Source: a virus
DNA length: 22,980 nucleotides
IMG/VR virus record: IMGVR_UViG_3300044971_001126
Location: 1 to 22,980 of that record
Reading direction: 5' to 3' (one strand)
The position numbers and the translations under genes were made by a program. Under the pieces are notes generated by a model. That model was given only the letters and a program-made list of their open reading frames with translations, was not told the DNA's origin and made no database searches. Positions 7,536 to 21,310 of the stretch are shown piece by piece (positions within the stretch are counted from its first letter, which is position 1; the number at the start of each line of letters is the position of its first letter).

Positions 7536-8927
7536 TCATTGGTATAAATTCACTTTAATCCTATTTCCTACCGATGAACCTTGAAAAACAACCTTAATCC
7601 AAAGAGCAGTGACGTTTGTCAGTGCTGAAGATATTGTGTGTCTCACTGTCCATGTTAAACCACCGTCAGTTGTGCTGCTTATTCTTATGTCATTTGCAGA
7701 CTTTTCGAACTTAACCTTGGAAGGGAAAGTAAAGCCAGTTGCGGCTGTGATGTATGCGGATGATGTGCCGTAGTAGGCTGTTCCGCTTACCCAAACAAAA
7801 CTTGCCAAATAGTTATGATCGTTCCAAGTAAGATTGTCTGTTTCGATGTTATCTATTGCAACTAACACAGGACTGCCAGTCCCTCCCTCAAAGTTCGCAA
7901 TTACAGACCACGCGATATCATTTGAAAAAGCTCTATTAGATATTCCTCCAGAAATAGATGCGCCAGACGAACGTATCCCCTGTCCATCCACTGTAGCACT
8001 TATTAGCTGTGAAAATGTTACCGCTTTTTTCTCCTGTGATCGATATCCTAGAACTTCTTGAGTTTTATCAACAAGTCTTTCTGTCAGGTTCTTGAGTCCT
8101 TGATAGGTATAATGGATGTTGTCCGATTCTACAGCAATGTTAATGATCGAAATAGCGTAGGTGTCAGCATATTCCGATGCTATCTCTGTGATCTTGGTCG
8201 CGTAGGCCGCGTTGTATTCTGCGAACCCTGTTGGGATGTTTAAATGCAAAATAGGGGTTGTTGCTCCAAGTCGATTGCGCAATTTTGCAAAGTGAGCTAT
8301 TAACGCCGATTTGTAATTTGCCGCAGTCATGTTATCGCGGGCTTCGTTGATGCCCGAAGAGTTCCATACAATCCATCGTATGTTAGTAGTTCCTAGTTGT
8401 GATTCTATTGCGGCAATACGTGCTAGGAAATTAGTCCAATATCCTGTTGCATTTCCAACAGACCATTCAGCAATTCTAGAACCAGACACAGCAACCTTTG
8501 CACAGTAAACCGTGCCAGTCAAATCACCTAATCTACAGCAGTTTGCAAGTTGCAATTCTGCCCCATGTCGTCCGACAGAGGAAGCATCATTATTTGAACC
8601 AATATCCAAATCCTGAAAAACTAAACTAGAGTTGTTTAAAATCTTCAAATCTGATCTTGATAAGATTTCCCACGCTTGGGCTGAGGTGTCTAGCGGCATT
8701 CCGTGCATGTTGCTGTCCCCGTGAAAAAGAATCACGATAGGATTTGTGTTTTCTTCGGAAGTGTTGTCGCTGTACGGTAGAGAACTCCAAGCCGTCACAC
8801 CATTACCAATCTTAAACCGCCTCGGCGTCGAGTTTGTTTCAATACCAATCTCGCCGGAAGCAAGAACCGGATTAACCGAAGTCCAGTTTGCTGCCGAGTC
8901 TCTGCGTTGCTGCATCCGTTGTGTCAT
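7536..8927 (-). CDS. tail fibre/spike with Mtd-like N-terminus and SGNH esterase-like domain
   Basis: A 463-residue protein in three parts. Residues 1-52 are an Mtd-like N-terminal domain (QQRRDSAANW, NPVLASGEIG, FKIGNGVTAWSSLPY) that also occurs in two other proteins here and likely attaches the protein to the virion. Residues about 62-290 look like an SGNH/sialate O-acetylesterase domain: block I FHGDSN (nucleophile S72), Gly in AVSGSRI (G149), the WNSSGINEA segment in place of WxxGExD, and SDNIH (D269, H272). Residues about 310-463 are beta-rich, probably a jelly-roll binding domain ending IKVNLYQ. A deacetylating receptor-binding protein that edits host surface polysaccharide is inferred. 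The ATG overlaps the upstream stop as ATGA. Confidence 0.78.
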   Translation of the reverse strand: MTQRMQQRRDSAANWTSVNPVLASGEIGIETNSTPRRFKIGNGVTAWSSLPYSDNTSEENTNPIVILFHGDSNMHGMPLDTSAQAWEILSRSDLKILNNSSLVFQDLDIGSNNDASSVGRHGAELQLANCCRLGDLTGTVYCAKVAVSGSRIAEWSVGNATGYWTNFLARIAAIESQLGTTNIRWIVWNSSGINEARDNMTAANYKSALIAHFAKLRNRLGATTPILHLNIPTGFAEYNAAYATKITEIASEYADTYAISIINIAVESDNIHYTYQGLKNLTERLVDKTQEVLGYRSQEKKAVTFSQLISATVDGQGIRSSGASISGGISNRAFSNDIAWSVIANFEGGTGSPVLVAIDNIETDNLTWNDHNYLASFVWVSGTAYYGTSSAYITAATGFTFPSKVKFEKSANDIRISSTTDGGLTWTVRHTISSALTNVTALWIKVVFQGSSVGNRIKVNLYQ

Positions 8928-9235
8928 GCTGTGCCTCCGTCTATTGCGTCGTAAATACTTGAAGCATTACCACCATCAAGTGAAATGTCTATCCAACCTA
9001 TATTGATTCTTGCTTGCTGTTTTTGCCCATCGGTAAGCGTCTGAGACGTATACGCAACGCTAGATACCACCGGCGTAGAATACCCCAACGCATTCCAAGC
9101 CGTCACCCCATCCCCGACCTTCATCTGCTTCGTAGTACTGTCGTAGCCGATCTCACCGTCCGCAAGTATCGGATTAGCCGCACTCCATTGTGCGGAGCTA
9201 CCTCGTCTTGATTGAATCGTGTCTTTCACTGGCAT
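8924..9235 (-). CDS. short Mtd-N-domain virion protein
   Basis: A 103-residue protein. Residues 1-53 form the Mtd-like N-terminal domain (IQSRRGSSAQWSAANPILADG, then GYDSTTKQMKVGDGVTAWNAL). The rest is a short linker with a helix (LTDGQKQQARINIGW) and a C-terminus DGGNASSIYDAIDGGTA of a type I know from the ends of phage tail-associated proteins. It has no recognisable receptor domain, so it may be an adaptor or tip piece. ATG at 9235 with AGGT upstream. It overlaps the esterase-type fibre gene as ATGA, and both share the domain, so they may co-assemble. Confidence 0.75.
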   Translation of the reverse strand: MPVKDTIQSRRGSSAQWSAANPILADGEIGYDSTTKQMKVGDGVTAWNALGYSTPVVSSVAYTSQTLTDGQKQQARINIGWIDISLDGGNASSIYDAIDGGTA

Positions 9236-9239
9236 GTTT

Positions 9240-10844
9240 TTACCTAAATGCGTCTTTTAGTTTTGAAATTGTCGATTCAAGTGCTGCGATGCGTCGTTCA
9301 AAGTCACCAACAACTGGTTGCGGCTCTGGTGTAGGTACTGGTTCTGGTAAAACAGCACCTATTGTTTTTCGGAAGTAAACAGTTGAATTCTCGGTAGCTT
9401 GCGGATGCCATAGCCAGGCAGCATTTCCCCACGCAGCAGGTAACACCAGACGCTCCCGATCCCAAGGACTACCCGCGTGACTCATCACAGAGGGAGCAAC
9501 CCAATTGACTCGATCTAAGCTAGCCTGCCAGCTTGCATCTGTCACATGCAACACATCGCCAACATATACAGCACCCAGCATCCCACCAGGACCACCAGCG
9601 TTGATCACTTCCACTTCGATCGTGTTTGATTCTTTCCACTGGGAGAAAGGAGTCGCATAACGATTTTTCCAGTCGTCTCCCATTGCTATCTGGTTTTCGT
9701 TTACACGCAATCGAAACGAGTTATCAGCATGTATTATGATTTCGTTCATTCGTTTTCTCTCTACTCTTGTTTCGGGTGGAAAATACTCAGTAACAAAAAC
9801 CGGACTAGAATAATGGGTTCCGTCGTGAGCCACTGCGATCAACTCTACTCGGTTGGATTCGATTATGGACCCATCAGGCTTGGCAACATCAAAGTTACCT
9901 TGCAACGGGATAGTGATCGTCGCTCTTGTTTTCTCAGGGTTATCGTAAGTAATAGCCGAAACGCCTTGCGATTTAATCCAATGAAGTTGGCATAGCTTAT
10001 TTGCTTCCAGCTCGACAACAATAGTACGAATCTGTGCATTCGTCCTTCGGATAAAACCAACTACCTCATCAGTTCGTACTGTGTGCGAATCCCATATTTC
10101 TTGCGTGTCGTTTCCTTGCAAGCTGTCGCTAATAACATTGATTTTTAGCGATGGTGGAATCGTGTCGAGTGTGATAGACGCTGCTAGATTAATGTCTTCT
10201 TGTGTTGCATCGCTGGTATCGACAACGACTCTATGGGATAAAGGATCTAAATAACCAGAGTATTGATTAGACCGAAGCAAGTACGAAACAACATCACCAA
10301 CACGCTTTTTGTCAATTAGCCATCGTCGAACTTCCGGTTTGAGTGCTGATACTATTTTCCTGCATCGATCTACTTCGTTTGCTTCGCTACCTGACGAACC
10401 CTGTGTTGTTAAAACGTAAGGTTGGTTCAGTTTAAACCAGTCCAGCGAATCGTAGTCTGCGTGCTCAGGGAAAAACTGTATCACTCCAGATTTCCAAAGT
10501 TCTCGGATTAGATACCACCATATTTTTCCATTGTCTGGAATCCTTGTATTCGATCCGTAATCTTCGTCCGGCCCTTTTGCTGTAGACGAGTTGCTGATTA
10601 CGATACCATTTGCATACGATTCATTCAGGTTTATTCCCCACGCAGTTTCGTTGTTACTAGTCTGGATTGTGTTTTCAAATGCCCCTCCGTAGTTCGCGTG
10701 CCACCCATCGCGGTTTTCATACCATATTAGCGAGTCTGTGGTAGGTAGTTCGTAACAAATTTGGTTTACGTTAGTGTTGCCTAAGAATGTTGCAATTGTC
10801 CGACTCGTATACTCAGCCAAGCTGTCGTACTTTATAAATCTCAT
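9240..10844 (-). CDS. large tail-associated adhesion protein
   Basis: A 534-residue protein I do not recognise over its full length. N-terminal and middle parts are mixed alpha/beta and rich in Trp/Tyr. Residues about 385-500 contain IEVEVINAGGPGGMLGAVYVGD, SWQASLDRVNW, PWDRERLVLP, AAWLWHPQATENSTVYFRKTI, a pattern of galactose-binding-like jelly-roll domains (the 'WIW...VYFRK' signature). Then come a Pro/Glu linker (LPEPVPTPEPQPVV) and a C-terminal coiled coil (FERRIAALESTISKLKDAF) that could trimerise it. No signal peptide. The ATG at 10844 has an excellent GGAGGTG site and overlaps the upstream stop as ATGA. Position within the fibre cluster suggests a virion-surface role. Confidence 0.6.
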   Translation of the reverse strand: MRFIKYDSLAEYTSRTIATFLGNTNVNQICYELPTTDSLIWYENRDGWHANYGGAFENTIQTSNNETAWGINLNESYANGIVISNSSTAKGPDEDYGSNTRIPDNGKIWWYLIRELWKSGVIQFFPEHADYDSLDWFKLNQPYVLTTQGSSGSEANEVDRCRKIVSALKPEVRRWLIDKKRVGDVVSYLLRSNQYSGYLDPLSHRVVVDTSDATQEDINLAASITLDTIPPSLKINVISDSLQGNDTQEIWDSHTVRTDEVVGFIRRTNAQIRTIVVELEANKLCQLHWIKSQGVSAITYDNPEKTRATITIPLQGNFDVAKPDGSIIESNRVELIAVAHDGTHYSSPVFVTEYFPPETRVERKRMNEIIIHADNSFRLRVNENQIAMGDDWKNRYATPFSQWKESNTIEVEVINAGGPGGMLGAVYVGDVLHVTDASWQASLDRVNWVAPSVMSHAGSPWDRERLVLPAAWGNAAWLWHPQATENSTVYFRKTIGAVLPEPVPTPEPQPVVGDFERRIAALESTISKLKDAFR

Positions 10845-12685
10845 TCCCAAACACCTCCAACCTTAACGAACGGTGTTGCACTCTTCCAAGTGCCAGTTAC
10901 TTTCACAAATGCCATTGCATCTTTCCACTCACCAGCAACATTCAGCCGGAAGCCACCTAGAGCAACATTGCCACTCTGCAAAGTTGCAGATGCAAGCTGA
11001 ACTGATAACAAACCAGTAGCACCGTTTGCAACTGTACCAGTTGACGATACAACGCACGAGTCGAGTGCTCGGTTGACTGACGCTGTTAAGCCAGCACTGA
11101 AAGAACCAGTGGACGATAGCGTGGCATTTGCGAGTGTTCGTGTTACGCTACCTGATGCACCGGCAGCTAATGTGCCAGTTGCCGACGAAACAACGTCATC
11201 GAGTGTCCTTGTGACGCTACCACTTAGCCCAGCCGCAAGCGTTCCAGTTGCTGAGCACGTAACAGCCGCTAGTGTTGACGATACCGAACCAGTTACGGAA
11301 CCAGCCGCACCACCTGTCGAGGACAAAGTTGCGTTGTCGAGTGTACGCGTTACCGTACCTGATGCACCCGCAGCGACAGTGCCGGAAGACGATAGCGTTG
11401 CGTTTGCGACTGTGCTATTCGTGCTACCAGTTAAGCCAGCCGCAAGCGTACCAGAAGCCGACAGCGTTGCCGCTGCTAGTGTAACCGATACTGTTGCCGT
11501 TACTCCACTTCCGACCGTGCCACTAGATACTAAAGTGGCCGCATCTAACGTGCGTGTTACCGTACCTGACGCACCAGCGGCAAGCGTACCTGTTGAAGAC
11601 AAACTAACATCGGCTAGCACTGCCGACAGCGAACCAGACAACCCGGCTGCCAATGTGCCCGACGATGAAAGGGTGGCGTTGGCTAACGTGCTCGATACCG
11701 AACCAGTAGGAGCAGGAGCAGAAGATATAGCTAACTTCCTACTTGCACGCTCGAATGCTATACCGCGACGAGACGCCAACGCCACAATTTCATTGCGCGA
11801 TAAAATTCGATTATAAACTCTATAATCATCGGCTAATCCATCGAGCTGTACTGCTCCATCATCACGCCTACCGAGGCGCAAATTAGAGTTAGAACCTGTT
11901 ACGACCCCAGTTTGAATACCAAACAAATACGTACCTACGGTAGACTTACCATTGAGCCAGAAAACAGGCGGTTCGCTCAAAGAACCTGTAGAAGTAACCG
12001 CAACGTGAACCCACGAACCAGTACCGATGTTAGGCCCGTTGTACCCAACAACATTTGCATTTGCCATTACGAATTGCAGCGAACCACCAGATGCAGTACG
12101 GAAATCAAACGGGTTTTGTGACGCTCCTCCTCCAGCATGTTTACCGAAAAAATGCACTAAAGATGTGCTTCTTAGATTAACCCACACGCATAGAGTTATT
12201 AGCCCTAGTACGTTGGTATCTCCCATCGGTATATCGATGTAATCGTCGGTTGCGAAATCTAACGCTGTCTTACCATTAGACGCAACCCAATCGCTGGCAA
12301 CCTCCATGCTTGTCAGCGTGCCGTGATTGCCGTAAACAGAATGATCGAACAGTCTCCCACCAGTAGCACCCAAAGACGGTGCCCAAGCACCCACGCAACC
12401 GTCCCATAAACTTGGATACTTCGGTGTCCCACCACGACGAGGCGAATAGAAACCTGCTTTGTAACTCGGGTTGTTCGAGCTTGGGATAACAATTGCGGAT
12501 GAAGTGCTAGGTCCGGTGCCAGTTGCCGACAGGGTTGCACTACCAAGCGTCGCGGTCAGCGTACCTGTTACACCAGCTACTGGCTCGACGAGCAATTCAT
12601 CGACGTACCAGCCCGCAGGAATCAGTTCTGCTTCCCACCATGCTAACGGTTCTAGATGTCGATCAAACGCACCGATCCGCGCCAT
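10841..12685 (-). CDS. LamG-like repeat-containing tail fibre protein
   Basis: A 614-residue protein. Residues 1-40 (MARIGAFDRHLEPLAWWEAEL) are an attachment-type start. One copy of a beta repeat follows (GTLTATLGSATLSATGT). Residues about 95-310 look like a LamG/concanavalin-like domain (GAWAPSLGATGGRLFDHSVYGNHGTL, TLCVWVNLRS, GSWVHVAVT, LRLGRRDDG, GLADDYRVYNRILSRNEI), usually carbohydrate binding. Residues about 328-557 are ten 23-residue Ser/Thr/Ala/Gly repeats. The end, GEWKDAMAFVKVTGTWKSATPFVKV, repeats a 'VKVxGxWK' motif typical of phage fibre tips. The ATG at 12685 is preferred over a TTG upstream; the previous gene's stop lies one base before it. Probably a stalked lectin. Confidence 0.72.
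   Translation of the reverse strand: MARIGAFDRHLEPLAWWEAELIPAGWYVDELLVEPVAGVTGTLTATLGSATLSATGTGPSTSSAIVIPSSNNPSYKAGFYSPRRGGTPKYPSLWDGCVGAWAPSLGATGGRLFDHSVYGNHGTLTSMEVASDWVASNGKTALDFATDDYIDIPMGDTNVLGLITLCVWVNLRSTSLVHFFGKHAGGGASQNPFDFRTASGGSLQFVMANANVVGYNGPNIGTGSWVHVAVTSTGSLSEPPVFWLNGKSTVGTYLFGIQTGVVTGSNSNLRLGRRDDGAVQLDGLADDYRVYNRILSRNEIVALASRRGIAFERASRKLAISSAPAPTGSVSSTLANATLSSSGTLAAGLSGSLSAVLADVSLSSTGTLAAGASGTVTRTLDAATLVSSGTVGSGVTATVSVTLAAATLSASGTLAAGLTGSTNSTVANATLSSSGTVAAGASGTVTRTLDNATLSSTGGAAGSVTGSVSSTLAAVTCSATGTLAAGLSGSVTRTLDDVVSSATGTLAAGASGSVTRTLANATLSSTGSFSAGLTASVNRALDSCVVSSTGTVANGATGLLSVQLASATLQSGNVALGGFRLNVAGEWKDAMAFVKVTGTWKSATPFVKVGGVWE
11015..11704 (-). repeat. ten tandem copies of a 69-bp (23-residue) repeat
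   Basis: The consensus is about GSVSxTLANATLSSTGTLAAGLS, with the most constant positions at the TL, the ATLSSTGT strand and the AAG turn. Copies are diverged (for example one has SSTGGAAGSVT) and a partial eleventh runs to about 10955. A lone copy sits upstream near the N-terminus. Periodicity also opens a 247-codon antisense frame, which is not a gene. Confidence 0.88.
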
Positions 12686-12686
12686 T

Positions 12687-12884
12687 TTAGTCGCCCCCGC
12701 CTTCTTCAACAGGAGGAGGAATCAGAGACCACTCCGAATCGACGTATTGCCAACCAGGGCCAGCGTAATCGGGACACACAATAACAGTGAGATGGACCGG
12801 CGCAGTCCAAGCCTCGACCCCATCCCAAACACACACGTTAAAGACTTGACCTGATGCTGTCAGTAACGCCCAACGTGTCACCAT
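12687..12884 (-). CDS. small tail-fibre-associated protein
   Basis: A 65-residue protein with a pattern well known from phage tail regions: TRWALLTASGQVFNVCVWDG, then W.AP, a middle strand, GWQYVDSEW and a Pro-rich end. Such proteins lie next to fibre genes, where they are thought to be fibre assembly or tip components; the biochemical role is not established. The ATG at 12884 overlaps the end of the glycine-rich gene by 7 bases. The stop is one base from the start of the LamG-like gene, so the three are co-translated. Confidence 0.65.
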   Translation of the reverse strand: MVTRWALLTASGQVFNVCVWDGVEAWTAPVHLTVIVCPDYAGPGWQYVDSEWSLIPPPVEEGGGD

Positions 12885-14176
12885 GATATTATGATCCCAT
12901 AGCCGTTGCCTCCGTTGCCACCCCGGCCACCGACGCCGGGGTTCATGCCGACACCGCCACCACCACCACCGCCGCCACCTTTGCCCCCGTTGCCGCCAGC
13001 CGCGCCCGCAGTAGATGCCGTGACAGTCGTTCCGCCACCACCTCCGCCTGTGCCGCCTACGATGCCGGTAGTGTCAATGCCGTTTGCGCCTGCCGTAGGC
13101 GATGCACCGCTCGTGCCCGCTGCACCGCCAAGCCCGCCCGCCGTAGCGCCAACGCTGTTGCCTGTGCCGCCGCCTGCCGATGCATCGATGGTGGTGGGGG
13201 TGCTGCTGTGACACCCGCCAGAGCCGCCACCGCCGCCACCCCACCGGGCAGTGCTACCCGCAGTTACGAGAGGCACGGTTGCGCTGTTGCTGGACCCGCC
13301 ACCGCCACCGCCGCCTTCCCAAGCAGGGCCAAACGCAGTCGAATTGCTGCCGTTTGTTTGCTGCCCCGATGCTGCCGCAGTGCTTGCTGACCCAACGCTG
13401 ACGCCATGAGTGCCCGCCCCGGTGCCGCCGTTGGAAGTCACGGCACTGATCGCACCGCCAGTCCCCGCAGCCCCGCCATAGGCAAACAACAGCGTGTAGG
13501 TCGTAGCTCGCGCATAGGACGCAGATCCCGAAAGCGGAGCCAAGCCCGCTGCGCCAGCCGTGCCACCACCACCGCCAAGCCCGCCCAATCCGATCACGAC
13601 AGCCAATTTTTCAGGCAGGGAATCGGTCGGAAAAACCTGACTGGCGCACAACCCCCCGCCGCCGCCCGATCCACCTTTAGCGACAACGGCAGTTGCCAGA
13701 GACGCGCCGCCTCCGCCGCCGCCTCCACCGCCCCACAGCCGGATAAGGGTCAGCCCGGTGCGAGGACCGGTCGGCTTGGTCCACGTTCCACCCGGGGCAT
13801 TAAAAGTCTGAATGTCTGCCGAAGGGAACGGAGATGACACCTTCCACCCGCTTGCTTCGTCGAAAATCAATCCTGACTGGGCAGGAATGCTACCGCTCCA
13901 CAAATCCGCCGTCGTTGTTCCATCCGTATGCAGCACTGTAATTGTCTGAGCCGCTGAATTGTGGTCGTTCCATACCGATAGAAACTTTACGACTCGGCTA
14001 TCGCTCCCACTAGGGCTGCCCACTACGTCAGTTGTGGTTGCCGCTGCTATGCTCGTGTTGAGCCTGTCAGGTGTAACCGTACTACCGGACAGGTCCACAT
14101 AGGAAGCGTGAACTAGGACGCTGTTCGATGAACTTGTTGTGACTCTGATTTTGTCGCTGGTTGACGTTAGGTACAT
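12878..14176 (-). CDS. glycine-rich adhesin, copy 2
   Basis: A 432-residue virion-surface protein. Residues 1-110 are a beta-sandwich type domain (MYLTSTSDKIRVTTSSSNSV, YVDLSGSTVTP, HTDGTTTADL, QSGL) common in phage structural proteins. After a hinge (IQTFNAPGGTWTKPT) comes LTLIRLWGGGGGGGGG and about 290 residues of Gly-rich sequence with short hydrophobic strands, ending GGNGYGIIISW. The Gly-rich part resembles polyglycine-sandwich adhesins such as gp38 of S16-like phages, where loops between Gly-rich helices set host range; this analogy is inferred. It is a tandem paralogue of the next gene upstream. GC rises sharply here because of GGN/GCN codons. ATG at 14176 with a weak ribosome site. 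Confidence 0.78.
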   Translation of the reverse strand: MYLTSTSDKIRVTTSSSNSVLVHASYVDLSGSTVTPDRLNTSIAAATTTDVVGSPSGSDSRVVKFLSVWNDHNSAAQTITVLHTDGTTTADLWSGSIPAQSGLIFDEASGWKVSSPFPSADIQTFNAPGGTWTKPTGPRTGLTLIRLWGGGGGGGGGASLATAVVAKGGSGGGGGLCASQVFPTDSLPEKLAVVIGLGGLGGGGGTAGAAGLAPLSGSASYARATTYTLLFAYGGAAGTGGAISAVTSNGGTGAGTHGVSVGSASTAAASGQQTNGSNSTAFGPAWEGGGGGGGSSNSATVPLVTAGSTARWGGGGGGSGGCHSSTPTTIDASAGGGTGNSVGATAGGLGGAAGTSGASPTAGANGIDTTGIVGGTGGGGGGTTVTASTAGAAGGNGGKGGGGGGGGGVGMNPGVGGRGGNGGNGYGIIISW

Positions 14177-14182
14177 TTTTTG

Positions 14183-15493
14183 TTACCAAGAGATTACGAC
14201 ACAGTATCCAGCGCCACCAATGCCGCCAGCACCACCAAGACCCGGGTTGCTACCGCGACCACCACCACCGCCACCGCCGCCACCAAGCCCGCCCGCGCCG
14301 CCCGCTGCCCCACTCGCGTTTGCCTGCACAGTCGAGCCACCACCGCCGCCGCCCGCGCCGCCCGTTGTGCCGTTGGTGGCCCCGCCCGCATCGCCGGGCA
14401 GAGGTGCCGGGCCGCTCGTGCCCGCTGAGACGCCCGCCGCGCCCCCGCCGCCAACAGACGAGCTAAAACCGCCGCCGGTCGTCGGGCTGGTTGCCGCAGG
14501 AACTGCGCTTGTTCCACCGCCCGAGCCGCCGCCACCGCCGCCAAAAAGCGACCCGCCGCCAGAGGTTGAAGCGGCAGCATTTGTCGAGCCGCCACCGCCG
14601 CCCCCGCCGAAGTGACCGTAATAACTATTACCCGCGCCAACCGCCCCCGTGATGCCTTGAATGTCAAAACCCGGCCCGGACGAAATTGGCTGCCCCCCGT
14701 TGCCGCCCACCGCTGCGGTGGCTGTTTGACCGGCAGAGTGCCCGCCGCCACCACCCCCGCCGCCAGTTGCAAGCGCAGAGTTTTGCCCGCCTCTTCCGCC
14801 GCCGCCGCCATAGCCGGTCAGCAGTGAGCCGAATGTCGTGTTGCCGCCGACGCCACCATCGCCACCCGATCCACCAGCCGCTGCACCCGTGCCCGCCGAG
14901 CCGCCTGCACCGATGGTCACCGATACGTCATTGGCAAGGTCCGAGGCCAAGAAAATCCGCTCGACAAAGCAACCACCGCCGCCTCCCCCGCCACCTTTGG
15001 TAACGGTCGCAGTTGCCAGAGACGAACCCCCACCGCCACCGCCACCTGCACCCCAGACGCGAACCATAACAACGCCCGGGTTGAAGCTGGTCGGCTTGTT
15101 CCATGTGCCACTTGCGGAAAAGGTTTGAATGTTTGTCGGTCTAGAATTGCCGATTACAGTCCAGCCTTGCCCATCGACGTAGGTCAATCCTGATTGGCTT
15201 GGCAGACTGACGACGTAAATATCGACGACTGTCGTCCCGTCAGTGTGTTGCACTGTAACCGAATTGGCTGAACTGCTAGAGTCGTTCCAAATGGAGACGT
15301 ACTTTATTTTTCGTTGCGTGCTACTCGCAGGACTTGCGACTATATCGGTCGTCGTAGCTGTGCTGATAGAACTGTTAAGCCGTCCCGGTGTAACCGTACT
15401 ACCAGAGAGGTCCACGTAGCTAGCTTGCACGCGAACATCACCAGCCACGGAAGTGACCAATCGGATTTTATCGCTGGTGGATGTCAGCAGCAT
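14183..15493 (-). CDS. glycine-rich adhesin, copy 1
   Basis: A 436-residue protein with the same plan as its downstream neighbour: N-terminal domain (LLTSTSDKIRLVTSVAGDV, YVDLSGSTVTPGRLNSSI, QHTDGTTVVD), hinge IQTFSASGTWNKPT, then VVMVRVWGAGGGGGGG and a long Gly-rich part with embedded variable loops (for example GPGFDIQGITGAVGAGNSYYG), ending GGAGYCVVISW. The two copies agree closely in the first 190 residues and at the last ten, but differ in the loops, as expected of receptor-binding surfaces. ATG at 15493, one base after the previous stop. Six bases separate it from copy 2. Confidence 0.78.
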   Translation of the reverse strand: MLLTSTSDKIRLVTSVAGDVRVQASYVDLSGSTVTPGRLNSSISTATTTDIVASPASSTQRKIKYVSIWNDSSSSANSVTVQHTDGTTVVDIYVVSLPSQSGLTYVDGQGWTVIGNSRPTNIQTFSASGTWNKPTSFNPGVVMVRVWGAGGGGGGGSSLATATVTKGGGGGGGGCFVERIFLASDLANDVSVTIGAGGSAGTGAAAGGSGGDGGVGGNTTFGSLLTGYGGGGGRGGQNSALATGGGGGGGGHSAGQTATAAVGGNGGQPISSGPGFDIQGITGAVGAGNSYYGHFGGGGGGGSTNAAASTSGGGSLFGGGGGGSGGGTSAVPAATSPTTGGGFSSSVGGGGAAGVSAGTSGPAPLPGDAGGATNGTTGGAGGGGGGSTVQANASGAAGGAGGLGGGGGGGGGRGSNPGLGGAGGIGGAGYCVVISW

Positions 15494-15494
15494 G

Positions 15495-15986
15495 TTATTG
15501 AGCCTCTGGTGGCATTGGAGTTACGATGACTCTAGAAGCGTTCGCGGTGTTCTCTAAGTTGTCACCTGCCGAAGCGTTCCAGACACCGATGGAATAGTAT
15601 CGACTAGTGATTGGTACGTTCTGAAACCGTGCGACTATATCCGTGGCTGTCGATGTCGTGTCTACAATCACAGCACCGATGAGTATTCCGTTGCGTCTCT
15701 TGTCCGCTGTTAGTGCAGCGTCTGACGTGCCTAGTGTTCCGTCCATGTAGGTTCCATCGGACTGGAACAAATACAACTCGACAGCTTCACCAAGTGCTGG
15801 TGCTGTTTCAAACTGAAAGACTCCAATCACTTCATGCGGTTCTGCTTGGCTACCTGAACCTCGATCATAACGAGCCGACACGCGACCAGCACCAAAGCCT
15901 AGGTTGTTCAGCGTGATAACCACATCACCACCGCTATCGCGAAAGACGACTGGAGTCTCGACCGCTCTATAAACTTTACTGGGCAT
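15495..15986 (-). CDS. phage structural protein
   Basis: A 163-residue, beta-rich protein. Segments such as GAGRVSARYDRGSG, FQFETAPALGEAVELYLFQSDG and YSIGVWNASAGDNLENTANAS match a group of virion proteins that I know from the fibre region of phages, where they probably form part of the tail tip or fibre base; no enzyme motif is present. The ATG at 15986 has an outstanding AGGAGAGG site and lies 11 bases inside the previous gene. The stop is one base from the start of the first glycine-rich adhesin. Confidence 0.65.
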   Translation of the reverse strand: MPSKVYRAVETPVVFRDSGGDVVITLNNLGFGAGRVSARYDRGSGSQAEPHEVIGVFQFETAPALGEAVELYLFQSDGTYMDGTLGTSDAALTADKRRNGILIGAVIVDTTSTATDIVARFQNVPITSRYYSIGVWNASAGDNLENTANASRVIVTPMPPEAQ

Positions 15987-16446
15987 TGCGTGCCTCTCCT
16001 ACGTGATGAGGACCAATTTTCACCGCACCAACAGTCGAAACAAACGAAACCGTTTCCGTTCCAAGTGCCGCTAATGATGTTGCTTGTGCTTGCGTCATCA
16101 ATCCAGTCAGCACTAAACCACCGACAAGCGTTTGCACCGAAGCTAAAGCAAAATCGATTGTCAGTATCTTGCCAGACGTATCGTCGATCCAATCTCTTGC
16201 CGCAATCGCCAATCCTCGAACAGTGACAAGACTTTCGGCAGGTATCGCAAGCGGGTTTCCTGGCTCGGTAGCCATGACGATGGCAGACCAATACTGGTTT
16301 TCGATTGCGTGCTTTTTCACTTCCCAAGTTGGGACTAAACGACTACGAGTAACCGTTTTTGCGTTTAACAAATCGGCAATAGCAGCATCGTTTAGGCCGT
16401 CATACTCAGGCTTGGCAATCTCTGTTTTAATAGCTGCCATGTCCAT
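15976..16446 (-). CDS. phage tail-region protein, unknown function
   Basis: A 156-residue, mainly helical protein beginning MDMAAIKTEIAKPEYDGLNDAAIADLLNAKT, a start type common in tail-region genes ('..I..EI..P.Y..L.DAEAA..LNA.'). The middle has VTVRGLAIAARDWIDD and a helical pair, and the end contains SLAALGTETVSFVSTVG. The function of the family is not established. An ATG two codons in (16440) is equally possible; neither has a clear ribosome site. It lies two bases after the preceding gene's stop, in the adhesion block. Confidence 0.6.
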   Translation of the reverse strand: MDMAAIKTEIAKPEYDGLNDAAIADLLNAKTVTRSRLVPTWEVKKHAIENQYWSAIVMATEPGNPLAIPAESLVTVRGLAIAARDWIDDTSGKILTIDFALASVQTLVGGLVLTGLMTQAQATSLAALGTETVSFVSTVGAVKIGPHHVGEARNAQ

Positions 16447-16448
16447 GG

Positions 16449-16877
16449 TTAAGCGTTGCCGTCTGTCAAGGTAAACGTATTGACCGTGAACGATTGACCT
16501 GCGGTGAATGAAGTCGAAGAAACTTCCATGTCACCACCGCCGCTAGTTGCTGTAACTGTTCCCTGGATAAAACAGGTTGTTCCGTCCTTTGTCGATTGCG
16601 AGTTGTAGACGCAGAAATGACCTGCCGTACCAGTAGCATCGGCAGACAAATCTTGCCATGTTCCAGAAATTGTTTTCGCTCCAGCCGTTGGTGTACCCGC
16701 AGCTGCCATCCAATCGGATGGTAAGTTAATAGTCGCAAGCACTGTTCCAGTCCGTGTTGCTGCACAGTTTGCAGGAACAGAACCCGAACGAATCTCCAGC
16801 GAACAGGATGTACCGTTCGTCGATTCGATTGTGTCAAGCCTTGCGTTTCTCGTAGCCACATTAAATTGAATAGCCAT
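16449..16877 (-). CDS. phage virion protein with beta-sandwich fold
   Basis: A 142-residue protein of a type frequent in phage tail clusters: MAIQFNVATRNARLDTIEST, then EIRSGSVPANCAATRTGTVL, NLPSDWMAAA, ISGTWQDLSADATGTAGHFCVYNS, and QSFTVNTFTLTDGNA at the end. The family has no assigned biochemical role; repeated strands and a conserved TLTDGNA end suggest a capping or fibre-base piece. The ATG at 16877 follows AAGGAT. It is 14 bases from the Mtd-N protein gene upstream. Confidence that this is a virion protein is good; the exact place is unknown. Confidence 0.68.
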   Translation of the reverse strand: MAIQFNVATRNARLDTIESTNGTSCSLEIRSGSVPANCAATRTGTVLATINLPSDWMAAAGTPTAGAKTISGTWQDLSADATGTAGHFCVYNSQSTKDGTTCFIQGTVTATSGGGDMEVSSTSFTAGQSFTVNTFTLTDGNA

Positions 16878-16891
16878 TCGTCTTTATCCTT

Positions 16892-17122
16892 TTATGGAGT
16901 GTACTGTAAATAGATATCACCATCGTTACCGCCCGATGGTGCCGCTGTGCCAACTGTGATCTTAGGACTGGAAAAAGCCAACCCGCTCCAAGCTGTCGAT
17001 CCGTCTCCGTACTTGACCCGGTTTTCAGTGGTATCGATACCAGCTTCACCTTGCAGCAAAATAGGATTTGCAGCAGCCCATTGACTTGTCGTCCCACGCT
17101 TTAGCTTTATCTTGTCGTTCAC
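16892..17122 (-). CDS. Mtd-N-domain protein, single domain
   Basis: A 76-residue protein that is almost only the Mtd-like N-terminal domain: KIKLKRGTTSQWAAANPIL, GEAGIDTTENRVKYGDGSTAW, then a short tail that includes the common collar start GTAAPSGGNDGDIYLQYTP. The latter is often the beginning of a fibre repeat, so the protein may be a shortened fibre or a free adaptor. The GTG at 17122 overlaps the upstream stop as GTGA. It is the first of three genes in the window with this domain. Confidence 0.75.
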   Translation of the reverse strand: MNDKIKLKRGTTSQWAAANPILLQGEAGIDTTENRVKYGDGSTAWSGLAFSSPKITVGTAAPSGGNDGDIYLQYTP

Positions 17123-17574
17123 GGTGTGCCTCCGTCGTAGGTATCTCCAGTCATTACAGACTCAGGAAATCCACCATCGATCACCGAATAGATAAACTCA
17201 CCATCTGCAGTCGGCTTCGTCACGAACTGAACAGAACAATCGGAAAGAACTCTCGTTGTCTCACGGTTTAGATGACGGACTTCGACAGAGTATCGATAAC
17301 GGCCTGGCTCCAGTTCAATCGTGTCAGCTTGATAAAGTTCGAATCGAAGATACCAATTGCCACCCGTCGCATCGATCACAGACCCTTGCACTAGGAACGC
17401 ACTGTCTTTGTAGACACCACCGAAATAACACGTACAACCACCAATAGAGAATCCGCTGATCGCTGGTATCGTCCACTGAAACGAACGGCTTGGATGGAGG
17501 TAATCGTCTGCGATAACGATCGGTCCATTGATCGATCCGTCAGCGTTCACCATGGTTGTCGCTGTGTACGTCAC
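17119..17574 (-). CDS. baseplate/tail-type beta-sandwich protein (BppU-N-like)
   Basis: A 151-residue protein. The layout is an N-terminal DDYLHPSRSFQWTIPAISGF strand region, FLVQGSVIDATGGNWYLRFEL, then LEPGRYRYSVEVRHLNRETTRVLSDCSVQFV. The 'TG..W.... L.PG.Y.YDVEV......VL.G.V.V' pattern is seen in the N-terminal domain of baseplate upper proteins and related phage tail proteins. It may anchor the receptor-binding proteins encoded downstream. GTG start (GTGA overlap with the membrane-coil gene). The ending DTYDGGTP resembles common phage tail endings. Family call moderate. Confidence 0.55.
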   Translation of the reverse strand: MTYTATTMVNADGSINGPIVIADDYLHPSRSFQWTIPAISGFSIGGCTCYFGGVYKDSAFLVQGSVIDATGGNWYLRFELYQADTIELEPGRYRYSVEVRHLNRETTRVLSDCSVQFVTKPTADGEFIYSVIDGGFPESVMTGDTYDGGTP

Positions 17575-17876
17575 TTCGTTTCGTTCCTGTGTGAGTACTT
17601 CGTACCAGTAACGTCAATTTTCGAAACTTTAGATTCCAACGTCTCCATCTTTGCTTCCAGCACTGCACACTTCGTATAAAGCTCGGCCCTATCTTGCTCA
17701 CACTGCTCCGAACGTTTAGCCGAGTTTTGCAAATCTGACTTCAGTTCCTGAATATTCTTTGCGTTTTCGTTTTCACGCAACTTAAACAGAAACGCAACAG
17801 CAGACGCTAGCGATGCAATGATCGTCGCAACACTTGCCATCACCCAGCCCGTCAAACCAACTTGTTCCTGCGTCAT
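17571..17876 (-). CDS. membrane-anchored coiled-coil protein (holin- or spanin-like)
   Basis: A 101-residue protein with a short N-terminus, one hydrophobic segment at about residues 10-31 (WVMASVATIIASLASAVAFLF), then a charged helix of about 60 residues with heptad character (IQELKSDLQNSAKRSEQCEQ, CAVLEAKMETLESKVSKI). One membrane span and a long coiled coil occur in phage inner-membrane lysis proteins (i-spanin type) and in some holin-like proteins, but no specific family is recognised. The ATG at 17876 is chosen because the frame upstream is a shadow of another gene. It has no obvious ribosome site. It follows the secreted small protein by 13 bases. Confidence 0.6.
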   Translation of the reverse strand: MTQEQVGLTGWVMASVATIIASLASAVAFLFKLRENENAKNIQELKSDLQNSAKRSEQCEQDRAELYTKCAVLEAKMETLESKVSKIDVTGTKYSHRNETK

Positions 17877-17889
17877 GGATAGCACGGAT

Positions 17890-18141
17890 CTATCTGCATT
17901 TGAGTCGTGAGAAGAAACCACGAGCTTTCGATACAACACATCGTTTTGACTCGTTTGCTTTGCACAAAATAATTTGTGACTCGTCACGCACGATTTGCAA
18001 TCCAGCAACAACAGGAGCCACCGCAACCGATGCGACTTTACGAACCACGTCACAGCGTCCGTTCTGGCATTCGATCTCCTGTGAGTAGCTAATCGTACTA
18101 AGTACAACCAAAGCAATTAGCGTGTTGATGATTTTCAGCAT
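17890..18141 (-). CDS. small secreted Cys-containing protein
   Basis: An 83-residue protein with a clear signal peptide (MLKIINTLIALVVLSTISYS, cut probably near Q21/E22), then ECQNGRCDVVRKV, a hydrophobic helix (VASVAVAPVVAGLQIV), and a basic Cys-bearing end; five Cys in all (C24, C29, C58, C66, C82 by eye). The 'CxNGxCxxVR' start after a signal peptide is a style I associate with planctomycete small secreted proteins, a memory-based inference. The ATG at 18141 overlaps the preceding stop as TAATG and has AAGGA eight bases upstream, which decides it over an ATG ten codons earlier. No lipobox is seen, so a classical o-spanin is not supported. Confidence 0.6.
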   Translation of the reverse strand: MLKIINTLIALVVLSTISYSQEIECQNGRCDVVRKVASVAVAPVVAGLQIVRDESQIILCKANESKRCVVSKARGFFSRLKCR

Positions 18142-18830
18142 TACTGCAATCCTTTCGTTATCGCGTCGCATGCGTCCAGGTATTTCGCTACCGTTTGCAG
18201 CTTCGCATCGTTAATCCACTTCGCGTTAGGTATCCGCCACACTTCTTCCCAGTTTGCATCTCTCGACGAACCTCTAGGACGAGCCAAAAGTACCGATTCA
18301 ATCGAATGAACAAATGCCGATTGAGCACCTTGCAGCGTTGGACATTCGTTTTTGTCGCACATCGCTCGCATGTCAGACACAATCTTCTTTAGAGAAGTCG
18401 CCAATGCTGCTCGCGTGGATGGGTCGTTAAGGCTTAGACTATTAACTCGACTAAGCTCCAACAATTTCGCAAACTCACCTGGATTACTTGGAGGCACATC
18501 AGGATCTGGCCTAGGCAAAATAGAATCACCGATCACCACCGTATGCTTTGCGTAATCAATCGCTGCCGTCTTGTCCGAAACAATCAGAATAAACGTGTAG
18601 TTACCAGGACGAGGAGTCGCAAAAAAAATCTGCGAGTCTATTGCTGTGCATCCGGCTTGCGCTGTCGAGATTCCTTCAGGAGTAATCCACTTGTGATTGT
18701 CCCCTTTCGACTTCGACGAATTAAGCACCACCAGCTCGCCAGGCAATGCTTTGCTTGGCGCGTCGATGATCGCTTCGACTTGTGCGAAACATGCGACCGA
18801 CAATAGCAACCATGCTGCGATTGTTCTCAT
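18141..18830 (-). CDS. secreted PKD-like domain protein
   Basis: A 229-residue protein. Residues 1-20 are a signal peptide (MRTIAAWLLLSVACFAQVEA); a lipoprotein cut at C14 is possible but the lipobox is poor. Residues about 20-100 resemble a PKD/Ig-like beta domain (APSKALPGELVVLNSSKSKG, HKWITPEG, PRPGNYTFILIVSD, HTVVIGD). A Pro-rich linker (LPRPDPDVPPSNPG) leads to a helical C-terminal part with several Trp and Cys (CDKNEC). PKD domains mediate protein or glycan contact. Its gene overlaps the protease gene as ATGA and the next as TAATG, so it is probably made together with the protease and may be its partner or anchor in the envelope. Confidence 0.65.
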   Translation of the reverse strand: MRTIAAWLLLSVACFAQVEAIIDAPSKALPGELVVLNSSKSKGDNHKWITPEGISTAQAGCTAIDSQIFFATPRPGNYTFILIVSDKTAAIDYAKHTVVIGDSILPRPDPDVPPSNPGEFAKLLELSRVNSLSLNDPSTRAALATSLKKIVSDMRAMCDKNECPTLQGAQSAFVHSIESVLLARPRGSSRDANWEEVWRIPNAKWINDAKLQTVAKYLDACDAITKGLQ

Positions 18831-19744
18831 GCCAGCACCAATTCCGACCTTAGAAGAGATTGCAAAAGTGAGTCAGCGACAGGAATACCGTGACCAAATC
18901 TAGGATCGAAACCTGGTGCACCAGCGTCTTTCAAATTCATTTTGAAAAACTCATTGACGCTCTTCGCTGCCGTCCATTGCGGCTTACCTTGCCGCCGCAT
19001 GACTTCGACGATGCACGCCAAAAGACCCGAACCAAACGGAGTCGCCATCGATGTTCCGCTCATCGATGTGTAGCCACTTCCGTTCTTTGAAAAAGAGATA
19101 ATATCTTGACCTGGACAAGCCCAATCAATCTCTCGTCCACCGCTAGAAAAGTTTGCTATCTGTCCGCTTGCTTGGTACGCACCACAGCAGATGCAACCTT
19201 CGTATTTTCCAGGCCACCCGATCGTATTCGCACCGTTGTAGCCAGCGTTACCTGCTGCAGCATTGACAATGCAACCTTTCGAAAACGCGTAATCGATAGC
19301 TCGGTTCGTTTCAACGTCAGATCCACCACCACCCAGAGAAAGGCTGATGATGTCGGCACCTTCGTCAGTTGCCCATCGGATACCGTTAGCGATACCAACC
19401 GATGACCCACTTCCTTGATCGCTCAAGCACTTGAACACAATCAGATCAGCATCAGGAGCCAGGCCGATTCCGTTGCGTCCCAATGCCGTTCCTGCACAAT
19501 GAGTTCCGTGTCCGTTACCGTCGCGAAGTGCAGACTGACCAGAGATGAACGACTTCGACGCAATCGGTTCAGGACCGTCTACGTGCTTTGTGTAGCCAGT
19601 ATCACCGATCGCAACCTTGATTCCTTTTCCAGTTGCAATCGACTTGACTTTTTCCGCAAGTTCAGACGGCCAGTGCCATAGCCTGGGAGCCATAGCATAG
19701 AGATCATTATTGTAGATTGTGTCAGGTGGGATCGTGTAATCCAC
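18827..19744 (-). CDS. subtilisin-family (S8) serine protease
   Basis: A 305-residue protease with an intact triad: Asp in VAIGDTG (about D48), His in GNGHGTHCAG (about H79) and Ser in SGTSMATP (about S232), plus the oxyanion Asn in AAAGNAG (about N166) and the ISLSLGG substrate strand. No signal peptide and no I9 propeptide are visible: the N-terminus begins directly at the mature-type segment before the Asp. Five or more Cys, including CICC, are unusual for a subtilase. The GTG start at 19744 shares its G with the upstream stop (TAGTG) and has AGGTGG upstream. It is coupled to the secreted PKD protein. Subtilases are rare in phage cores. A role in host exit or virion maturation is inferred; see findings. 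Confidence 0.9.
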   Translation of the reverse strand: MDYTIPPDTIYNNDLYAMAPRLWHWPSELAEKVKSIATGKGIKVAIGDTGYTKHVDGPEPIASKSFISGQSALRDGNGHGTHCAGTALGRNGIGLAPDADLIVFKCLSDQGSGSSVGIANGIRWATDEGADIISLSLGGGGSDVETNRAIDYAFSKGCIVNAAAGNAGYNGANTIGWPGKYEGCICCGAYQASGQIANFSSGGREIDWACPGQDIISFSKNGSGYTSMSGTSMATPFGSGLLACIVEVMRRQGKPQWTAAKSVNEFFKMNLKDAGAPGFDPRFGHGIPVADSLLQSLLRSELVLA

Positions 19745-20061
19745 TAGCCACCTCGACGAGCTAACCAAAGCTCAATCAGCTTCAGAACAATCGGAATCAA
19801 CAGCGAAGGATCGATTGCTGTCGCTTGCGGATCTTCGGATGTAATTGCATCGAGTGCATGAATGCATCCGCTGATCGTAGACGGCAACTCGTCTTCCGCA
19901 CCTAGCGAGATAACAAAACCAGTTTTCAGAAGTGCTCCGATCTCACCCGAGATAGCACCAACCAGCAAAAGATTGTCACCGCGATCGAAATCTCCAGAGC
20001 GAAGATTCTTCACCAACTGCAACACATGATTGACTGGCAACCGTGCTTCGAAATCGTACAT
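19744..20061 (-). CDS. hypothetical phage protein upstream of the protease
   Basis: A 105-residue protein, not recognised. Residues 1-40 (MYDFEARLPVNHVLQLVKNL) are amphipathic; the centre (GDNLLLVGAISGEIGALLKTGFVISL) is helix-rich and semi-hydrophobic; the end (IPIVLKLIELWLARRGG) could be membrane-associated. No signal peptide. The ATG at 20061 with GGAG upstream is preferred to a TTG fourteen codons earlier. Its stop codon shares a base with the protease start, so the two are tightly coupled; a helper, inhibitor or export partner of the protease is possible but unproven. Confidence 0.6.
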   Translation of the reverse strand: MYDFEARLPVNHVLQLVKNLRSGDFDRGDNLLLVGAISGEIGALLKTGFVISLGAEDELPSTISGCIHALDAITSEDPQATAIDPSLLIPIVLKLIELWLARRGG

Positions 20062-20127: not shown

Positions 20128-20331
20128 CTAGTCGCTATCTGCCACCGTGTCGCTATTTGTCGCACTATGTCGCAGCCATACTACAATTTGTGACATCGTC
20201 CAAGTCGGCCTGGTAAGAACTGGATTCGTTGGAGGAAGTTTGCCAGCTCGCTTCCATCGCTCAATGGTTCTAACAGACCTATCAACGATTTTTGCCAATG
20301 CCTTTTTGTCGATCAGTTTCAAATCATCCAT
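20128..20331 (-). CDS. small helix-turn-helix DNA-binding protein
   Basis: A 67-residue protein with a MerR/AlpA-type helix-turn-helix: LIDKKALAKIVDRSVRTIERW, then a wing KRAGKLPPTNPVLTRPTWTM and a last helix SQIVVWLRHS. Such proteins act as excisionases or regulators. It sits at the border between the early replication genes and the envelope/virion genes, which would suit a switch for late expression, but this is only positional. The ATG at 20331 is preceded by GGTGA and lies 7 bases after the previous stop. A 66-base gap follows, one of few in the window. Confidence 0.75.
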   Translation of the reverse strand: MDDLKLIDKKALAKIVDRSVRTIERWKRAGKLPPTNPVLTRPTWTMSQIVVWLRHSATNSDTVADSD

Positions 20332-20571: not shown

Positions 20572-20840
20572 CCGCCGTTCCTTCTCCGTGCCATGCGTTG
20601 CTGCCGCTTTTCCCGAAACACCTTATTGATAAACGTCGCTTTTTCAAACTCTTCGCTTATGGTTGCCAACACGCACTCGTCGTACTTGTGCCACAGCGGT
20701 TGGCCTAATCGAACACGTTCCGTGATTACGAATAGCTTTTCAAGACTACCTGGCCGAGCGCCAGTCGGCTCGCATTCGTTGCGTGGTTCAAAGTCTTCGT
20801 CGTGTTGTTTTAGACGAAGTTCGCGAAAAATGTTGTTCAT
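20568..20840 (-). CDS. hypothetical early phage protein
   Basis: A 90-residue charged protein. The centre, TGARPGSLEKLFVITERVRLG, followed by QPLWHKYDE, matches a motif ('.RPGS.EKI.V...R...G.PLWHP.D') seen in small bacterial and phage proteins of unknown role. The C-terminal part is basic (REKRQQRMARRRNGG), suggesting nucleic acid contact. It overlaps both neighbours as ATGA. No enzyme motif. Confidence 0.65.
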   Translation of the reverse strand: MNNIFRELRLKQHDEDFEPRNECEPTGARPGSLEKLFVITERVRLGQPLWHKYDECVLATISEEFEKATFINKVFREKRQQRMARRRNGG

Positions 20841-21310
20841 GGTACTTCCGGTGTCTCATTGTGAAAAAACGCTTCGTGATCCGTCTTCTCGAACTGACTA
20901 GCCGTATACGCCACACCTAACGCTGCCCAGTAGTGCCCAGAAACTCCGTAAAGCGGACCTGGGTTCTTCTTTGTTCCGACCTCTCCCAGTGCGTCTATCA
21001 ACGCTTGTCGAATGTTGGTGTCCTTTGCTCGTGCTGAACCGCATAGTGTTAGCTTGACATCTCGCCTTGGAATCAGACGAACGACTCCCAGTTGCTGTTG
21101 CATGCGTCCAATCTGAAACACCGTCCTGAACACTTCTTGACCCACTGCCATACCGAAAGACTCAATCCACTCAATAGCAACCTTGTGTTTCCATAACGCA
21201 TCTGGCAAATCCTCCGGCTTGAACGTGCCAACTGATACCACTCGCTTTTCCACAGAGTCGAACAGTACGCAAGATTGCTCTACTGGACCTGGATCTATTC
21301 CGACTATCAC
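20837..21310 (-). CDS. RuvC-like Holliday junction resolvase
   Basis: A 157-residue RNase H-fold nuclease. Motif 1 is GIDPG (catalytic D6); the second acidic site is in VAIEWIESFG (E47/E50); the C-terminal helix has AKDTNIRQAL (D98) and SGHYWAALGVAYT with His126 in place of the usual acidic pair. I know this 'GPLYG..GH.WAAL.VA' ending from phage RuvC-like proteins. It would resolve branched replication intermediates before packaging. GTG start, overlapping the previous stop as GTGA, in the replication operon. The call is firm at the fold level, less so for exact substrate. Confidence 0.75.
   Translation of the reverse strand: MIVGIDPGPVEQSCVLFDSVEKRVVSVGTFKPEDLPDALWKHKVAIEWIESFGMAVGQEVFRTVFQIGRMQQQLGVVRLIPRRDVKLTLCGSARAKDTNIRQALIDALGEVGTKKNPGPLYGVSGHYWAALGVAYTASQFEKTDHEAFFHNETPEVP

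Follow-up and report, generated by a model that had tools for sequence, protein, structure and literature searches.

What does a subtilisin-type protease do for a virus when it is encoded together with four tightly coupled partner genes? The question is raised by the IMG/VR record IMGVR_UViG_3300044971_001126, a single virus record of 22,980 bp without end repeats, the whole of which is here called the window. At positions 17571 to 20061, on the minus strand, the window carries a block of five genes whose starts and stops overlap or nearly touch, as was already described in the initial annotation, where the block was read as a candidate lysis or exit module built on a protease instead of an endolysin. 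According to our analysis, the block probably serves planctomycete phages as a late module for host exit (lysis), which is directed at the envelope and in which the class of the protease can be exchanged. All five genes lie on the minus strand. The gene at 19744..20061 encodes h105, a helical partner of 105 amino acids (aa) that is coupled to the start of the protease gene, and the same architecture adjoins the protease in about 30 relatives. The protease of family S8 is encoded at 18827..19744 and has 305 aa when read from a GTG that overlaps the preceding TAG, while an alternative in-frame start, the TTG at 19768, would extend it to 313 aa. Its stop overlaps (ATGA) the start of a gene for a secreted PKD protein (18141..18830), which consists of a signal peptide, a PKD/Ig-like domain, a Pro-rich linker, and a predicted C-terminal five-helix domain. 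The gene at 17890..18141 encodes a small Cys-containing protein, predicted to be secreted, which has 83 aa when the ATG within TAATG is taken as the start; a 93-aa version that begins at 18171 is disfavored, as the shorter site is the start in the relatives. The block ends with a membrane protein of 101 aa (17571..17876) that has one N-terminal transmembrane (TM) helix followed by a coiled coil.

The identity of the S8 protease goes far beyond chance, since its product matches Pfam PF00082 over the entire domain (E 2.7e-42) and the PHROG "protease" (1.5e-53), contains the complete Asp, His, Asn (oxyanion), and Ser subtilase motifs, and is under strong purifying selection, with ratios of nonsynonymous to synonymous substitution rates of 0.05 to 0.09 in 28 pairs among eight close relatives. 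The protease is thus intact, and the claim that it has neither a signal peptide nor a propeptide holds as well: about 45 residues precede the catalytic Asp, no hydrophobic stretch was detected at the N terminus, and both hallmarks of secreted subtilisins, the signal peptide and the I9-type propeptide, are missing. In its complete catalytic machinery and cytosolic N terminus it resembles the intracellular type of S8 subtilisins, and its profile matches in the PDB are subtilisins and intracellular serine proteases. It differs from the family at large in that the phage S8 proteins are devoid of an inhibitory propeptide, are accompanied by constant partner genes, and form a clade of their own; among 168 S8 domains placed in one tree, 47 phage sequences make up one clade (support of 0.998), and the next larger clade brings in planctomycete S8 proteins. 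Phage-encoded S8 proteases also occur in the Bacillus phages SP-15, Goe3, and BvP and in the Moorella phage MTATph1, which are different phages with a lower identity (31 to 39%), compared here by their S8 sequence only. One S8 relative, L109:5860-6864, carries its own N-terminal signal in an otherwise similar block: it starts with the signal-like MINRRNLLMAGASAILRPSLSAA, and its signal (RRNLLMAG) is Tat-like. To judge from its sequence, such an export signal would fit an envelope target.

The cytosolic N terminus and the constancy of the small partner would also suit a protease for host take-over or counter-defense that is restrained by the 105-aa protein, and among cellular proteins its closest relatives are the intracellular-type S8 proteases of planctomycetes. 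We nevertheless deem this explanation improbable in view of the late-operon position of the block, its envelope-directed partners, the S8 relative with an export signal, and a papain-like version of the protease, described below, that is exported or anchored.

How constant, and how widespread, is the block? Scans of IMG/VR yielded eight contigs with an S8 protease at 65 to 96% identity, to which more were added via the terminase, and 80 loci were kept from a scan with the S8 profile. About 45 viral contigs, which represent several unrelated types of virion, combine the S8 protease, a small helical partner, and a secreted PKD protein, usually with a small membrane protein, and a PKD partner lies downstream of S8 in 25 further loci. 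The block is indeed conserved among related phages. It is nearly identical in the window, G001, G003, and G004, which have different terminase, portal, capsid, and tail genes; as far as sequence comparison can tell, the block is mobile among phages of unrelated virion types. Its location is that of a lysis cassette, in a late operon beside the terminase or between head and tail genes. In the window it sits between the DNA-metabolism genes and the terminase, in G018 and G029 it directly follows the terminase, and in G008 (S8 at 65%, PKD protein at 37%, and a TM/coiled-coil protein) it is placed between the head-tail connector and tail-completion genes, which is the site of the lysis genes in phage P2.

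The surroundings of the block also bring up a tail-associated or tail-processing protease, which would mature adhesins or digest a host surface layer on entry. An adhesin cassette adjoins the block and travels with it at high identity among the window, G001, G003, and G004, notwithstanding their unrelated virions, and in phages of 60 to 190 kb (L112 to L116, L119, L120, L138, and L142) the genes for a small helical protein and S8 have baseplate-like neighbors and no PKD partner, which possibly reflects a different use. Against such a role, the block is found with unrelated tails, the papain-like counterpart is membrane anchored or exported, and the signal peptides of the partners indicate that these leave the cytosol of the infected cell. 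We regard a tail function as unlikely.

Does the phage encode a conventional wall-cutting enzyme elsewhere? The initial annotation had pointed to the lack of an endolysin in the window; this is correct, and since the window is a 23-kb fragment it proves little alone, for which reason relatives were studied. Two of them are complete, namely, G028 (37,131 bp with an exact terminal repeat of 120 bp) and G003 (40,487 bp, of which the first 276 bp are repeated at the end at 96%), and G001 is near-complete. The Pfam search of 44 scanned proteins of G028 returned 22 families, including S8, and no endolysin; likewise, 13 families and no endolysin were found both for 41 proteins of G003 and for 45 proteins of G001, where the scans covered the proteins other than those of the module genes, terminase, portal, capsid, DNA methylase, and shared tail genes. 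The complete relatives therefore keep the block and have no recognizable endolysin. Furthermore, no Amidase_2, phage lysozyme (GH24), SLT, or M15_3 domain was found in 30 contigs carrying the S8 module (1.82 Mb, 24 of them at least 35 kb long), the sole exception being one subthreshold M15_3 fragment, while Amidase_2 was present in 7 of 16 other S8-bearing viral contigs that served as a control. No enzyme of a known peptidoglycan-degrading family was thus detected, either among these four families in the 30 contigs or among the Pfam families returned for G001, G003, and G028. The placement in a lysis slot and the lack of a recognizable wall-cutting enzyme in two complete relatives may mean that these phages exit by protein digestion.

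The same genomes bear on whether S8 is a prohead maturation protease, the role that the initial annotation had named as speaking against lysis. S8 is near head genes in G008. Separate head proteases are, however, present in G001 and G003 (Clp-type), in G028 (a protease-capsid protein), and in the window, where positions 247 to 2544 encode what appears from the sequence to be an HK97-like fusion of prohead protease and major capsid protein. S8 is therefore not the sole protease of a head-gene block, and we rejected this role, to which we assign a minimal probability.

If the protease acts on the envelope, what do its partners contribute? The model of h105 is all-helical (predicted local distance difference test score of 79), with three helices and a C-terminal amphipathic helix, SLLIPIVLKLIELWLARR, and it had no match in the PDB or BFVD at an E value of 0.001. 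The propeptides of type I9 have an alpha/beta fold. A trans-acting I9-type propeptide was accordingly rejected for h105, given the all-helical model and the lack of matches, and a helical chaperone, an inhibitor, or a membrane tether are the candidate roles. About 30 S8 loci encode a small helical protein with an amphipathic helix at its end, for example LLIPIVLKLIELW; profile comparison shows homology between the h105 type of the window and the type encoded downstream (hhalign, 87.5%, E 3.6e-6), and the small protein of the large phages matches mainly at the C terminus (hhalign, 68%). The PKD protein of the window remains under the Pfam cutoff (21 versus 27 bits), and its AlphaFold model aligns 80 residues with 2y72 (Z score of 10.3, root mean square deviation of 2.6 Å), which identifies the PKD beta-sandwich fold. 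In G001 (L024:9505-10179) and G004 (65314-65988), a nearly identical open reading frame (ORF) of 224 aa lies between S8 and the PKD gene; it is absent from the window and looks like a recent mobile insertion. Export signals are predicted from sequence on the partner proteins of the S8 block. The membrane protein, for which we found no match in the phage collection, is predicted to be N-out/C-in, with one TM segment and a cytoplasmic coiled coil, and would be holin-like by size, topology, and place only. A function as i-spanin is disfavored by the positive charges that follow its TM segment, and a moron or lysogenic-conversion gene is disfavored by the co-orientation of the block with the late genes.

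The supposition of a planctomycete host is borne out by prophages. The hosts are deemed to be planctomycetes because a chromosomal prophage in the planctomycete genome G427 carries the same gene order, with RuvC, a 113-aa protein ending in KLLPIVLDVVFRLRG, S8, membrane proteins, and a TM/coiled-coil protein, on a contig that also holds host genes; a second S8 gene lies shortly ahead of a terminase on another contig of this genome. Relatives of the window terminase, at about 30% identity, were identified in 55 of 392 planctomycete genomes. The phage S8 profile gave 11 strong matches in 10 of the 392, most of which are chromosomal S8 genes, and the S8 scan of genome contigs returned mainly bacterial subtilases. 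When the same genomes were searched with the PKD profile, mostly host PKD domains were retrieved, except for one prophage (in G341). In both S8-bearing prophage regions of G427, a c-type-heme-like gene is found near S8 (L333:11574-12560 and L338:5637-7091), one of them cytochrome c peroxidase-like (MauG type) and the other with a CxxCH motif.

Is the protease at this position always of the S8 type? In prophages or phage-like regions of the planctomycete genomes G341, G431, G379 (two regions), G252, and G210, we identified a papain-like protease (L263:12701-13765, L344:18632-19768, L364:1184-2218, L358:1504-2577, L359:1297-2517, and L361:1492-2388) that in most members has an N-terminal TM or signal segment. 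The residues Q102, C107, H259, and N283, a papain-type set of Gln, Cys, His, and Asn, are invariant in the six members, and almost only chains of the papain family (C1) are matched by its profile in the PDB, with weak scores (best E of 0.0013). The family, which has no Pfam match at 0.05 and no PHROGs assignment, is undescribed, and it differs from the C1 family also in the PKD partner that adjoins it in planctomycete prophages. The distance from its gene to the terminase is no more than about 10 kb in G341, G431, and one of the G379 copies. The PKD protein or a relative of it directly adjoins the papain-like protease in G341, G431, G379, and G252, and the PKD proteins of the two kinds of loci are homologous (hhalign, 98%, E 4e-14) over the PKD domain, the Pro-rich linker, and the C-terminal helical domain. 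A conserved PKD partner beside an exchangeable protease suggests that envelope proteolysis is the point of the block, and we consider this the strongest single argument. Such a swap of protease class beside one kept partner would represent a clear nonhomologous replacement in a lysis-like slot.

We infer from these findings the envelope as the target, the membrane protein as a holin, and lysis as the outcome of a host-exit module. The S8 protease would build up in the cytosol in folded form with its small helical partner, until the single-span membrane protein permeabilizes the inner membrane or times the release. The exported PKD and small Cys-containing proteins would by then be in the periplasm and guide S8 to an envelope protein target, or prepare that target, whose digestion would break the cell and free the virions. 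More generally, planctomycete phages could lyse their hosts by protein digestion with a general protease, either S8, released from the cytosol, or the papain-like type, exported, together with an exported PKD protein and without a peptidoglycan hydrolase of their own; we advance this broader proposal tentatively.

Several observations weigh against a protease-based exit. Planctomycetes possess lysozyme-sensitive peptidoglycan sacculi (PMC4432640), and the G427 host has a MurE-like gene, so that proteolysis by itself may be insufficient to breach the sacculus; the premise of a protein-rich planctomycete wall is hence not supported as it was stated, while the relatives, the conservation of the block, the separate prohead proteases, the host, and the second protease class are in favor of the exit reading itself. 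Most of the S8 contigs are fragments, and an unknown lysin is compatible with the absence of matches in Pfam and among the best 25 families listed from PHROGs. Holin- or spanin-like families match the membrane protein only weakly, S8 is missing from most planctomycete prophages whose terminase is related, and in phages of 100 to 190 kb the small protein and S8 are surrounded by baseplate-like genes, with no PKD protein. In four planctomycete prophages with a related terminase that were read by eye, no canonical endolysin was seen. Missing endolysins may accordingly be common in phages of planctomycetes, which may make the absence less specific to S8 and yet the question broader. The envelope may be held together by protein linkage, host autolysins may be activated by the protease, or an unrecognized peptidoglycan enzyme may take part; that the protease suffices without such an autolysin or enzyme appears somewhat doubtful to us.

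The peptidoglycan of the hosts (PMC4432640) also accords with a spanin-like task, in which S8 serves the outer envelope (a surface protein layer or the outer membrane attachment) and peptidoglycan is cut by an unrecognized phage enzyme or a host autolysin. The exported PKD and Cys-containing proteins suggest an outer target, and many genes of G003 and G028 belong to no family. We consider this rather unlikely, as the three genomes G001, G003, and G028 contain no candidate peptidoglycan enzyme and no invariant Glu was found in the C-terminal domain of the PKD protein.

A host-exit module of the proposed kind would share with the S-R-Rz cassette of lambda and the Y-K-lysABC cassette of P2 the late operon, the position adjacent to the terminase or between head and tail genes, a small membrane protein, and exported small proteins. 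It differs from them in its enzyme, a serine (or papain-like) protease instead of a member of a peptidoglycan enzyme family, and in the PKD and helical partners that stand where lambda and P2 have known spanins. As in clostridial collagenase, the PKD domain has the fold of 2y72, but in the block it belongs to an exported protein of its own, which has a helical C-terminal domain and is not fused to the protease. We know of no phage lysis system that uses a general protease as its enzyme, and none was found in the open-license literature on planctomycete phages, lysis, and proteases. If the proposal is true, protein makes up at least part of the layer that bears the load, or limits exit, in planctomycetes; this would touch on the long-running controversy about the planctomycete wall, and the block provides directly testable genes for phage exit from these bacteria.

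The neighboring genes are likewise on the minus strand. Immediately upstream of the block is a helix-turn-helix regulator resembling excisionases and terminase small subunits (20128..20331), preceded by a RuvC-like Holliday junction resolvase (20837..21310); the order RuvC, small protein, S8 recurs in the G427 prophage. The end of the block is overlapped by the start of a gene for a 151-aa protein (17119..17574), the first of the adhesin/tail cassette (7536 to 17574), which encodes glycine-rich, LamG, and Mtd-like N-terminal proteins. Small putative zinc metalloproteases with HExxH-type motifs are encoded in the S8-bearing phages G029 (28379-28954) and G004 (52236-52955), one of them among tail-fiber genes; phages of this group are rich in proteases. 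Finally, G003 (L027) has a match to Erv1/Alr-like thiol oxidases (Pfam, 1.5e-10), unusual in a phage, and G001 has a similar Cys-containing ORF (L025:8378-8878).

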